Source: Blastocatellia bacterium (GTDB taxonomy: Bacteria; Acidobacteriota; Blastocatellia; HR10; J050). From it: DNA of 42,514 nucleotides. Location of the stretch: assembly GCA_026985075.1 (NCBI GenBank), contig JALSQX010000029.1:1-42514 (forward strand), read 5' to 3'. Positions 11,289 to 17,124 of this stretch are shown piece after piece (positions within the stretch are counted from its first letter, which is position 1; each line of letters begins with the position of its first letter). A program made the translations under genes and the position numbers. Under the pieces are notes generated by a model that was not told the origin of the DNA, made no database searches, and saw only the letters and a program-made list of their open reading frames with translations.

Positions 11289-12977
11289 TCAGGGTGCGAG
11301 CGTCAAATCTTTGATGAAGGTGAAATCGGCCGAAGTGGGAATATGCGCATTCTTCACCCGCGGACTCATGACCGCCACATTGGCCGGATACCAGAGATAG
11401 ATCCAGGGCACATCATCAGCCAAGATCTCCTGAATGCGCGCATAGAGACGGAGTTGCTCCTGGCGATCGCTCGTCGCCTCGGCAGCAGCAATGAGCTCGT
11501 CCAGCGCCGGATTCCGATAGCGGGCTCGATTGAGAAAGCCGGTGCGCTCACGCTCGCTGACGCTGGGATCGAAGGGAATGGAGCGCGAGCCGAAAGCGGC
11601 CTTGAAAATGTCGACGAAGCGATTCGCGCCAGGCAAACGCAGATATCCGATCTGGAATCGGCCTCGGTTCAGATCGTTGAGGTAGGTTTGCAGTTCGAAC
11701 GACTGAAGGTCCAGCGCGATGCCCACGCGCCGCAACTGCTCTTGAATGATGGTGGCCACCTGGCGCGCTTGCTCGGCCGACGACGTTTTCAATGTAAGAT
11801 GAAGCCGAGGAGCCGGTCCCGGACCATCAGGATCGGGATAGCCGGCCGCTTCGAGCAACCGCTCGGCCTGCCGGGGATCATACGCATAATGCCGCACGCC
11901 GGGATGATAAGCCCAATGCCCGGGCGGGAGCACGGTGGCCGCCTCCCTGGCCTGTCCTCGAAACAGACTCTCGATGATGGCTCGCCGATCGAGCGCGTAG
12001 GCGATGGCCTGCCGCACGCGTCGGTCCGAGAGGATGGGATCGGCGGTGTTCAACACCAGATACTCGATGCTCGCTCCATCGGCGACGATGACCTTGAGCG
12101 CGCCCGATCGTCGCTGCTCTTCGATGAAGTCGGGCGACAGTCGCGTGTTGAACGCCAATTGGACGGCGCCGCTCAGCAGTTCCAACGACAGCGTGGTGGG
12201 ATCGCGAATGATCCTGATCCTGAGGCGCTCCACGCCCGGCCCTCCACCAAACGCCTCCGGAAAGGCCCGCAAGTCGACTTCCTGACTCTCGATGTACTTC
12301 TCGAGTTGAAAAGGACCCGTCCCAATAGGGTGCTCGGCGATCGTCTCGCCGGAGCCCTCGGGGATGATGCCCACGGCCAATAGATCCACCAGAAGGCCCG
12401 GATACCTCTCCCGGCAATGAAACACGACGGTGTGAGCGTCGACGGCCTCCACGCGGTCGAGCTTGCTGAACGCGGCTCGCTTGGGAGAATCGAAGTGGGG
12501 AGCGATCAGGCTGTTGAACGTATAAGCCACATCGCGGGCGGTGAGTCGGCGCCCATCATGAAAAGTGACGCCGGACCGCAAATGAAACGTATACCTCCGC
12601 TGGGCCTGATCGACCTCCCATCGCTCGGCCAGCTCGGGCACGATCTCGAATCGCTCATTGGTGCGCACCAGGGTGTGAAAGATGAGCTGTTGAATATGTG
12701 CCGTTTCGGAGTTGGTCGGTCCCCGAGGATCGAAGGTGATGGGCGGCGTTTCCACGGCCATGACCAGCGTTCGCGCGGCATCGTCGTCCACTCTCTGACA
12801 AGCCGCGCCGAACAGCAACCAGCCGCCGAGCAAGAGAGCGAGCGCAGGCCACGCACAACAGGCACCGACACGCTTCATCCGAACCCGGTCGCTCACTGTT
12901 GACCGTCTCATCGCTCGCGATCGTTGCTCGGCGCATTCCTCCGAATGAACGAGCCAGACGCGACAGCGATGCGTCAT
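11289..12977 (-). CDS. ABC transporter substrate-binding protein, family 5 (oligopeptide type)
   Basis: Exported solute receptor of the DppA/OppA family that hands peptides or related compounds to an ABC permease. After an N-terminal hydrophobic stretch and FGAACQ, a lipobox-like end with Gly at -3, come the family features: RTLVMAVETPPITFDPRG, FHLRSGVTFHDGRRLTARDVAYTFNS, PIGTGPFQLEKY, RRVRQAIAYALDRRAIIES and YDPRQAERLLEAAGYPDPDG. The mature part is about 510 aa, as expected. The ATG at 12977 follows ACGAGGAGTTCG, a strong ribosome site, but gives a long 33-residue lead before the hydrophobic core; ATG 12878 would give a normal signal length without a ribosome site. No permease or ATPase genes are adjacent, so it is an orphan receptor here. 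Confidence 0.92.
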   Translation of the reverse strand: MTHRCRVWLVHSEECAEQRSRAMRRSTVSDRVRMKRVGACCAWPALALLLGGWLLFGAACQRVDDDAARTLVMAVETPPITFDPRGPTNSETAHIQQLIFHTLVRTNERFEIVPELAERWEVDQAQRRYTFHLRSGVTFHDGRRLTARDVAYTFNSLIAPHFDSPKRAAFSKLDRVEAVDAHTVVFHCRERYPGLLVDLLAVGIIPEGSGETIAEHPIGTGPFQLEKYIESQEVDLRAFPEAFGGGPGVERLRIRIIRDPTTLSLELLSGAVQLAFNTRLSPDFIEEQRRSGALKVIVADGASIEYLVLNTADPILSDRRVRQAIAYALDRRAIIESLFRGQAREAATVLPPGHWAYHPGVRHYAYDPRQAERLLEAAGYPDPDGPGPAPRLHLTLKTSSAEQARQVATIIQEQLRRVGIALDLQSFELQTYLNDLNRGRFQIGYLRLPGANRFVDIFKAAFGSRSIPFDPSVSERERTGFLNRARYRNPALDELIAAAEATSDRQEQLRLYARIQEILADDVPWIYLWYPANVAVMSPRVKNAHIPTSADFTFIKDLTLAP

Positions 12978-13028
12978 CGAACTCCTCGTTTCTCGCCTCG
13001 GATATCGACCATCCGTCACTTCGCCAAA

Positions 13029-13781: not shown

Positions 13782-15080
13782 ATGAGAGCGATACATGGAT
13801 TGACCATTGAGCGAGCACCTCGACACGTGATGGTCCTCTGCCAGGATGTCGATGTGGCGAGAACCATCGAAGCCACTCTCCACAATGAAGACTACCAGAT
13901 GACGCTCACCAGGAATCCCCACCAGGCTGCACTGATGATCACGAACCGGAATGACATTGACGCCATCCTCGGCGACGCCCAGATGTGCTTGGGGCGGGAA
14001 CAAGAGAAAGTCCTTCAGAGGATGCGCCTCGATCTGGAGGGTTTCAGCGTCCCACTGCTCATCCTCGTCGATCCTGACGATGACCGGCAGTGGCATCTCA
14101 TCGATCGCCTGGCCAGCGATGAGTTTGTGCTGAAGCCGGTCCGGGAAGAAGAACTGCTCTGCCGGCTGAAAGGGATGCTCTGGCGGAAAGATCTCGGCCT
14201 CAGCTCGATGGACGATGATCAATGTCAGATGCGTCGTCAAGCATTCGCCCATTATGTGCGGACGGACCTGGAGACGAGGCGAGAGGCGGGAGAGGCGTCA
14301 AGTCTGGGGTTGATCGAAGTGGTCGAGGCCTGGGATCGCGTGGTCAGTGGAGACGAAACAGGCGACCAATGGACCGAGCAATTGATGGCCTACATGACCA
14401 CCAGTCTGCGGCGCATCGATCGTGTCGTCCGCTCCGGCCGGGTGACGTTGATGGTGTACCTGCCGGGACGCCCCGGTCCCCTAGCCGGTCAAGCACTTCA
14501 ATTCATGCAGGCGGAGTTCGCTCAACGAACGGGATTGCCATTCTGCGCCGGTCTGGCGACCTATCCAGAAGACGGAGAGTGCTTCAGCGAGCTGGTCTTG
14601 ATGGCTGATCAAACGCTGATGAAAGCGCGGGCGACAAGGAAGCCACTCATTCTGACGCCTCAGGACACCGTCCATGTGCGTGAGGGACATAAGATCGTCA
14701 TTCTCGACGGCGATCGGTTCATCACCACCCCCCTCAAGGCGGTGTTCGATGCCTGGGGATATCAGACGATGATCGTCGAGAACGCCCATCAGGCTATGGA
14801 AATGATGCACCGGGAGCACCCTCATCTCCTCATCCTGGATCAACGCATGCCCGAACTGACGGGATTTCAATTTCTGGAGCAATGGCGCGCTCACAGCGAC
14901 GGACAGCGGTCGGTGCCCGTGATCATGCTCACTACGATGACGACTCCGAGCGATCTGCTTCGCGGGTTTGAGCTCGGGGTGACCGACTATGTGGGGAAGC
15001 CCTTCAATCCCCGTGAATTGATTGTGCGCGTCGAGCGAATTCTGGCCAACCGCCCGTCGTTTCTACGGGTCCCAACCTGA
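13782..15080 (+). CDS. response regulator with two receivers and a degenerate GGDEF domain
   Basis: Cytoplasmic signalling protein of 432 aa with no DNA-binding end. The N-terminal receiver-like domain has D22, the possible phospho-acceptor D65 (ILGDAQM) and K119 (LKPV). The middle (about 145-295) follows the GGDEF fold, but the signature is gone: where RxGGDEF should stand it reads RSGRVTLMVYLPG, so no cyclic-di-GMP synthesis is expected. The C-terminal receiver is canonical, with acidic residues at ILDGD, D353 in LLILDQRMPE, T384/T385 and K406 in GKPF. It is the first gene of a set with a hybrid kinase-like protein and an HPt protein and lies directly behind a sigma-54 promoter. The ribosome site GGAG abuts the ATG, so translation may be weak or start a little further in. 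Confidence 0.9.
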   Translation: MRAIHGLTIERAPRHVMVLCQDVDVARTIEATLHNEDYQMTLTRNPHQAALMITNRNDIDAILGDAQMCLGREQEKVLQRMRLDLEGFSVPLLILVDPDDDRQWHLIDRLASDEFVLKPVREEELLCRLKGMLWRKDLGLSSMDDDQCQMRRQAFAHYVRTDLETRREAGEASSLGLIEVVEAWDRVVSGDETGDQWTEQLMAYMTTSLRRIDRVVRSGRVTLMVYLPGRPGPLAGQALQFMQAEFAQRTGLPFCAGLATYPEDGECFSELVLMADQTLMKARATRKPLILTPQDTVHVREGHKIVILDGDRFITTPLKAVFDAWGYQTMIVENAHQAMEMMHREHPHLLILDQRMPELTGFQFLEQWRAHSDGQRSVPVIMLTTMTTPSDLLRGFELGVTDYVGKPFNPRELIVRVERILANRPSFLRVPT

Positions 15081-15340
15081 TGGAGGAGAGGGGTGAATCC
15101 GATATCATGGTTCCGGAGATGGCAGCGACCGGGACGCCGACGCGCAGGGGGAGGAGGGATGCCGACGAGTTACCGGGGGGAGACGCCTCACCGCCAGGTG
15201 CCCGGGAATGATGACGGCGGCGTCATCTGATGAGGCGCAGCATCCGGGATGAACGTGCTCAGATGGAAGTGGAATCGACGTTCATCCCGCCTTGATCGCG
15301 CGGACCCTGGTGAGTGAGATGACGTTCGACGGAGGATCTC

Positions 15341-16612
15341 ATGGAGAATCGCCAATCTATACAGCCCACTGAGCAACAGAGCGACGTGATGAAACACCGC
15401 TTTCCATCGAGTCCCGATCGACGGCGACTTCACAGCGAGTTCATCTCTCTGGTCTCAGGTGAATTGCGGTCATCGCTCGCCTCGATCAAAGGATCGCTCG
15501 GCCTCATTCTGGGAGGCGCTTGTGGAGAGATTGACCACCGGGTGACAGACGTACTCACCGCGGCATACGCGCACAGCGAGCGCGCCACCCGGTTGATCGG
15601 CGATGTCCTGGAACTCTCCGAGATCGAGGCAGGACGGATTAACATGAAGCGGGAACCGGTCGATCTGCGACTGGTCATCGAGCAGAGCGTCGCCAAGATG
15701 TCGGATTTTGCCGGTCAACGTGGCGTTCTGATGGTCACTACGCTGGCCGATGCGCTTCCCCTGGTGGAAGGAGATCGGGATTACCTTCAACGCGTTGTGA
15801 TGACCCTCCTCTCTCATGCACTGATGGAGAGCCCCCCGGAAGAGCCGGTCATCATCACCGCCGAGCATCAGGATGGATGGGTGACGGTGAGCGTCAAAGA
15901 TGGCAGCCCCGGCACGGCTGGCGAAGAGTCACGTCGCCTGTTCGATGCACTCTATCACTTGAGCGCCGCCTCTCATCGTTCCACCGGAGCCAAAGGGCTC
16001 GGGCTTCCCATCTGCAGAGCGATCGTCGAGCAGCACGCTGGAGAAATTGGCGCAGAGAGTACGCCCGATGGGAGGCGACGGCTCTTTTTCGCGTTGCCGA
16101 CGATCGAGGCCCACGCTTCCTCGAAGGCGCCTTCCCCACCGTCCGAACCACGAGCCGTAGCCACCGCCACCCGCGGCGCTCTGTGGACCGCTCCCGCCGT
16201 AGCCGAGCGACCGCCAACGCCATTCATTCTGATGGTGGATGATGATTCGGGACTGCGAAAAGTGGTCGCCCGCATCGTCCAGCACTCGGGCTACACCGTG
16301 GAGACGGCGTCCAACGGCGAGGAAGCCATCGAGAAAGTCAATCTCCTCCATCCTGACCTCCTCATCCTGGATATTCTCATGCCGGTACTCAGCGGATTCG
16401 GCGTCGTACAGGCGCTCAAACGACAACCGGCCACCCGAGATATCCCCCTGCTGGTCCTGACCACCAAGGAATTGAGCGAGGCGGAGAAGAAGGCGCTTCG
16501 TCTCGGCCCGACCAAATTCCTCACCAAATCGCTGGTCACTGTGGAGTCGCTCACTGCCGCCGTGAACGAGCTTCTGGAGCGACGACACTCCGGATGTGAG
16601 GTCGTGGCATGA
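15341..16612 (+). CDS. hybrid histidine-kinase-like protein lacking the phospho-accepting His
   Basis: The 423-aa protein has the layout HisKA, HATPase, receiver, with no transmembrane segment. The dimerisation box normally reads SHELRTPL; here it is SGELRSSLASIK, with Gly at residue 40 (codon GGT) instead of His. The ATP-binding part is also altered: the N box reads TLLSHALMES with H159 in place of Asn, while the G box KGLGLPICRAIVEQH (218-232) is kept. The C-terminal receiver looks active: DDD at 300-302, D344 in LILDILMP, T375 and K396. So this is probably a pseudokinase that can only receive phosphate. The start at 15341 follows GGAGGATCTC. Its stop overlaps the HPt gene by four bases, implying coupled translation. 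Confidence 0.92.
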   Translation: MENRQSIQPTEQQSDVMKHRFPSSPDRRRLHSEFISLVSGELRSSLASIKGSLGLILGGACGEIDHRVTDVLTAAYAHSERATRLIGDVLELSEIEAGRINMKREPVDLRLVIEQSVAKMSDFAGQRGVLMVTTLADALPLVEGDRDYLQRVVMTLLSHALMESPPEEPVIITAEHQDGWVTVSVKDGSPGTAGEESRRLFDALYHLSAASHRSTGAKGLGLPICRAIVEQHAGEIGAESTPDGRRRLFFALPTIEAHASSKAPSPPSEPRAVATATRGALWTAPAVAERPPTPFILMVDDDSGLRKVVARIVQHSGYTVETASNGEEAIEKVNLLHPDLLILDILMPVLSGFGVVQALKRQPATRDIPLLVLTTKELSEAEKKALRLGPTKFLTKSLVTVESLTAAVNELLERRHSGCEVVA

Positions 16613-17124
16613 AAGGCTGCTCACAGGGCAAGGAGATCCTCCACTCCCTGAAGAGAGAAGACGCCCCCGAGCGCCCAACGCGATCGATCCAGAGAGCGCG
16701 CCGGATGATAGCCGAAGACATCTTTCGGCGAGAGATCCTCAATCTCCGCAGCGAGTATATCGCCCATGGCCTCGCCGAAGTGGAGCGAATGCGCTCCTGG
16801 TTGGAACGGCAAACCACTCCCCGATTGGTCCCGTCCGAATTGATGACCTTCGTCACCCTCGCCCATCGACTGCGCGGATCGGGGCAGGTGTACGATCTTC
16901 CCCAGGTCACGGAATGGGCGAGCATTCTGGAGAGCAATCTGAGGACGGTCGCGGAGGAGAACGATGCGCGCATCACCGCCGAACACCTACGATCGCTGCT
17001 CACCATCGTCGATCGACTCTATGCTGCTTTGAAGGAGACAGAAGATCGACACGACTCCCGATCATATAACGAATGCCGACGCCCGGCGCGCCGAATTCAG
17101 GGACCGGGACGGCACTCAGAGTGA
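16609..17124 (+). CDS. HPt domain phosphotransfer protein
   Basis: The 171-aa product contains the histidine phosphotransfer signature AHRLRGSGQVYDLPQV with the acceptor H86, then a helical C-terminal half (HLRSLLTIVDRLYAALKE). HPt proteins carry phosphate between receiver domains. The ATG overlaps the stop of the hybrid kinase-like gene (ATGA), with GAGGTC just upstream. Residues 30-65 form an amphipathic helix typical of the four-helix bundle. It is the third gene of the set; together with three receivers but without a histidine-bearing kinase nearby it needs a kinase from elsewhere in the genome. Confidence 0.82.
   Translation: MKGCSQGKEILHSLKREDAPERPTRSIQRARRMIAEDIFRREILNLRSEYIAHGLAEVERMRSWLERQTTPRLVPSELMTFVTLAHRLRGSGQVYDLPQVTEWASILESNLRTVAEENDARITAEHLRSLLTIVDRLYAALKETEDRHDSRSYNECRRPARRIQGPGRHSE

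Follow-up and report, generated by a model that had tools for sequence, protein, structure and literature searches.

Pseudo-histidine kinases, exemplified by DivL and RcsD, are an accepted class of signaling proteins and are usually viewed as finished products. In DivL of Caulobacter, the phospho-accepting His is replaced by Tyr (Ala in Magnetospirillum), the protein acts without kinase activity, and a conserved patch is found on its receiver-recognition surface (PMC4211667). RcsD, a membrane protein with an ABL domain, joins a pseudo-kinase part to a fused HPt and is fed by the hybrid kinase RcsC (PMC7418988, PMC3762810). ShkA of Caulobacter is an active hybrid kinase, whose C-terminal receiver passes phosphate to the separate phosphotransferase ShpA and which carries an extra pseudo-receiver that binds c-di-GMP (PMC7010744). 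Across HisKA domains, 722 of 76,471 (0.9%) are without the His (PMC12632262).

The window analyzed here is the whole 42,514-nucleotide stretch of contig JALSQX010000029.1 (assembly GCA_026985075.1) from a Blastocatellia bacterium of the Acidobacteriota. One of its genes (Table 1) encodes a 423-aa protein of HisKA-HATPase_c-REC architecture, scored by Pfam at 32.2 bits for HisKA (weak, against a cut-off of 26.9 bits), 64 bits for HATPase_c, and 78 bits for Response_reg, with no sensor or membrane domain found by Pfam. In the AF2 model (mean pLDDT 78.5, pTM 0.57), two long DHp helices (residues 25-57 and 66-96) are followed by a CA fold and a receiver. ShkA was its top Foldseek match, and the nearest solved folds include HK853-RR468 and the pseudokinase DivL. 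HisKA and HATPase_c are thus recognizable and the phospho-accepting His is absent, Gly40 occupying its place within SLVSGELRSSL; likewise, His159, within TLLSHALMES, stands where the N-box Asn is expected, and the protein therefore has neither of the two residues that mark an active hybrid histidine kinase. In this species the G1 box is eroded alongside the H and N boxes. The Thr found at H+4 of HisKA kinases serves phosphatase activity; Ser replaces it here, and Ala in the sister-species protein. The receiver has its acidic pair, Asp344, Thr, and Lys396. The ORF and orthologue alignment bear out the initial annotation, made from the sequence alone, in its coordinates, strand, Gly40 (GGT), and N-box His, and it had also rightly described the C-terminal receiver as intact.

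Table 1. Coordinates of the predicted pseudo-histidine kinase, its parts, and neighboring features in the window
Feature	Coordinates	Strand	Basis or remark
SBP_bac_5 solute-binding protein, divergent neighbor	11289..13019	-	Conserved beside operon
Partner protein, REC1 (degenerate)-GGDEF-like-REC2 (intact)	13782..15080	+	Pfam, alignment, Foldseek
260-base gap	15081..15340	+	G002 has a 161-aa stand-alone receiver gene at this place
Predicted hybrid pseudo-histidine kinase gene	15341..16612	+	Pfam, AF2 model, orthologues
Parts of predicted pseudokinase			DHp, residues 28-100; CA, 101-255; Pro-rich linker, 256-292; REC, 293-416
Codon 40, GGT, Gly at phospho-accepting position	15458..15460	+	Orthologue alignment
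DHp helix-1 receiver-docking stretch, residues 48-63	15482..15529	+	Identical to active G002 orthologue
Codon 159, CAT, His replacing N-box Asn	15815..15817	+	Orthologue alignment
Intact receiver domain of predicted pseudokinase (Asp344, Lys396)	16217..16588	+	dN/dS 0.064
Stand-alone HPt protein, His86 (AHRLRGSG)	16609..17124	+	True start may be further downstream

Two relatives bear on the origin of these losses. The sister species G001 (contig RFHM01000225.1, Acidobacteria MAG J050), a separate assembly, carries the same gene set, and its protein (79% identical) has Asp40 (GAT) together with His159. The corresponding protein of G002, from another genus of the same family, is canonical, reading SHELRTPL (His = CAC), NLLSNALKFSP, and DHGMGIP, and scores 69 bits for HisKA in Pfam. 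It is 55% identical overall and 77% in the receiver, and we regard it as the orthologue because gene positions match, both loci running H+-pyrophosphatase, SBP_bac_5, partner protein, kinase, and HPt; unlike the locus here, the G002 operon retains the canonical His, Asn, and G1 box in its kinase and contains an additional stand-alone receiver gene. Since the phospho-acceptor His and the Mg-binding Asn are missing from both genus members and present in the active orthologue, normal autokinase activity is not expected, and the product is almost certainly a pseudo-histidine kinase in which, as judged from its residues, autokinase activity was lost. The earlier claim that this set of proteins can pass phosphate yet cannot start it fares accordingly: the latter half is supported, while for the former the phosphorylation residues of the receiver, the HPt, and the partner's REC2 are present.

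Because the syntenic G002 orthologue is canonical and both genus members are without His and Asn, the loss is, on this comparison, derived within this Acidobacteriota genus, of which two members, both metagenome assemblies, were sampled, and the predicted ancestor is an active soluble hybrid kinase. The codons CAC, GAT, and GGT allow a His-Asp-Gly path in few base steps; Asp may have preceded Gly and is a possible intermediate. A wider scan of genome contigs returned, besides the sister species, distant kinases only. Within this genome, no second, active copy of the kinase was found, the next best matches being ~28% identical, and the His is present in 40/40 other HisKA proteins found by Pfam (37 checked by HMM alignment, three by eye). 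Below the Pfam threshold used, the genome encodes a second His-less kinase (L199, G000:C105:14314-15066). With L198 and L200, it has Gly in LVGEARNALTPV in all three family members and intact N, G1, and G2 boxes, and relatives in the same order (L202, L203) read IAHELNNPLTS, with the His present.

Selection was estimated as dN/dS by the Nei-Gojobori method between this genome and the sister species, with bootstrap CIs. For the DHp-CA core of the two genus members, dN/dS was 0.288 (CI 0.19-0.42) at a dS of ~0.5, with neither stops nor frameshifts in either species. By domain, values were 0.34 for DHp, 0.27 for CA, 0.064 for the receiver, and 0.26 for the HPt domain, a moderate constraint. In the same two genomes, 24 orthologous kinase cores ranged from 0.035 to 0.167 (median 0.078), all of them below the dead core, which is 3-4x less constrained than working kinases. 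Because 0.288 lies above all 24 and clearly under 1, the dead core, though under weaker constraint than working kinases, evolves non-neutrally under purifying selection. Neutral decay of a pseudogene was rejected on dN/dS; partial decay was kept as a rival. It would leave only the receiver and HPt useful and DHp-CA as a relict folded just well enough to carry and dimerize the receiver. The elevation of the core above every orthologous kinase pair next to a tightly held receiver, the erosion of the H and N boxes (with G1 added in this species), and the prior loss of a neighboring receiver gene all speak for such decay, but a dN/dS so far under 1 at this dS, the open reading frames of both species, and a docking stretch that is the same as in the active orthologue make it unlikely, if still worth serious consideration.

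The docking stretch lies in DHp helix 1, the helix that receives receivers in HK853-RR468. Residues 48-63 (H+8 to H+23) are identical to the G002 orthologue at 16/16 positions versus 28/57 in the remaining DHp (Fisher p ~1e-4, for a segment chosen post hoc, after the alignment was viewed). Two active kinases compared over the equal segment had 7/16 versus 27/57 identities, that is, no excess. The positions rewired in HK853, A268, A271, and T275 (H+8, H+11, and H+15), are unchanged in the pseudokinase, and two helix-2 specificity positions vary. The dead DHp-CA is, from this pattern, likely a receiver-docking or sensing part, and its conservation suggests that selection maintains it for docking or as a scaffold, and not only as a carrier for its own receiver.

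The partner, kinase, and HPt genes, the last two overlapping by 4 bases (ATGA), are presumably on one transcript, given their spacing and conserved order. In the partner protein, REC1 has lost part of the acidic pocket and the Thr/Ser, and SGRVT stands in place of the GGDEF signature (relatives have HGRVT and FDQTR); despite a model that matches PleD and DgcR in Foldseek, the signature of a diguanylate cyclase is absent. REC2 has its phosphorylation residues and is constrained. The initial annotation had called this a two-receiver protein, which is correct for REC2; REC1 is a pseudo-receiver, and the degenerate GGDEF domain between the two was overlooked. The HPt protein it placed next to the kinase was confirmed, and all three family members share its His86. 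Among 118 genomes of the class, the HPt of the operon was found in this family only. In family f2 the partner protein occurs by itself, no kinase or HPt gene adjoining it, and REC2 of the homologue there (L081:5322-6644, minus strand) has also lost its Asp. In families f1 and f2 alike, the SBP_bac_5 gene adjoins that of the partner, including where the kinase and HPt are missing, and a functional link between the two proteins is possible.

Another change in the operon, also missed previously, concerns the partner-kinase gap, which spans 260-268 bases in this species and G001. By comparison with G002, the stand-alone receiver gene has been lost from the operon. Translated, positions 15101-15160 match the phosphorylation-site region of the G002 receiver along 20 residues, with a score reached by 3/1000 mononucleotide shuffles; seen in this species and not in its sister, this could be a remnant of that region, a reading that is suggestive only.

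That receiver and HPt are intact, with no kinase of their own, would also suit a phosphate sink, in which the two drain another pathway and the dead core has no docking role. With Ser or Ala at H+4, little phosphatase activity is to be expected of the core itself, as a sink of this kind would have it, but the intact and constrained REC2 of the adjoining partner suggests a target for delivery, and we consider the sink improbable. Less probable still is an unconventional kinase phosphorylated on His31 or His78 of the DHp. Both residues are common to the two genus members, where the active orthologue has Lys and Asn, yet the N-box Asn needed for placing Mg-ATP is also lost, His31 is displaced upstream by nine residues, which puts it out of register by roughly half a helix turn, and His78 is in helix 2; the same points weigh against a second phosphorylated histidine in the helix, which the initial annotation had named as a way in which it could be wrong. 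The other way, a sequencing or assembly error at codon 40, might be entertained for a window from a single metagenome assembly but is excluded, as a change from CAY (His) to GGT (Gly) takes two base changes and the separately assembled sister, also His-less, has a different residue at position 40 and the same N-box change.

On balance, the locus probably encodes a pseudo-histidine kinase that has been retained as a scaffold for docking receivers, within a relay whose phosphate is supplied by a kinase from another locus. The dead DHp-CA dimer would dock or sense a receiver, which could be that of the pseudokinase or one of the partner's; phosphate would enter from the receiver of another hybrid kinase via the HPt and would be exchanged among the HPt, the pseudokinase receiver, and REC2 of the upstream partner. 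Among the clear HPts found in this genome, that of the operon alone is a separate protein; the remaining three are parts of hybrid kinases of contig C74 (L197, G000:C74:22000-41000, a cluster of three). These hybrids are candidate donors, and the first to consider because they are the closest paralogues in this genome, also rank next there in similarity to the G002 kinase (32-35% identity), and have a counterpart cluster in G002, with one HPt-bearing kinase, 10 kb from the orthologous operon. The identity of the donor kinase and the direction of phosphate flow are guesses. More speculatively, and with rather low confidence, the operon may represent a relay rewired after losing its kinase within one genus, the dead kinase having become a receiver-docking sensor, the HPt a hub for other hybrid kinases, and the non-enzymatic pseudo-GGDEF protein the target. 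For annotation, the correction would be that the operon has no working kinase and no working diguanylate cyclase.

Compared with known systems, the pseudokinase resembles DivL in the replaced His, the retained DHp-CA fold (predicted here), and a conserved receiver-recognition surface. DivL, however, has lost only the His itself from its H, N, G1, F, and G2 boxes, and PAS domains precede its C-terminal DHp-CA. Here, Gly or Asp takes the place of Tyr or Ala, the N box is lost to His, no sensor domain or PAS is present, a receiver is fused, and an HPt is co-encoded. The combination of a pseudo-kinase part and an HPt, with a proposed hybrid kinase as the source of phosphate, recalls RcsD, in contrast to which the HPt is a separate gene and the fused C-terminal domain is an intact receiver. 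With ShkA-ShpA the locus shares a hybrid kinase architecture and a separate phosphotransferase, but ShkA is active. Retained under selection and free of stops, the protein would join DivL and RcsD with an unusually clear evolutionary series, in which active (His), possible intermediate (Asp), and further (Gly) states survive in close relatives and in the same gene neighborhood. With three natural proteins at hand, the transition from kinase to non-enzymatic part becomes testable.
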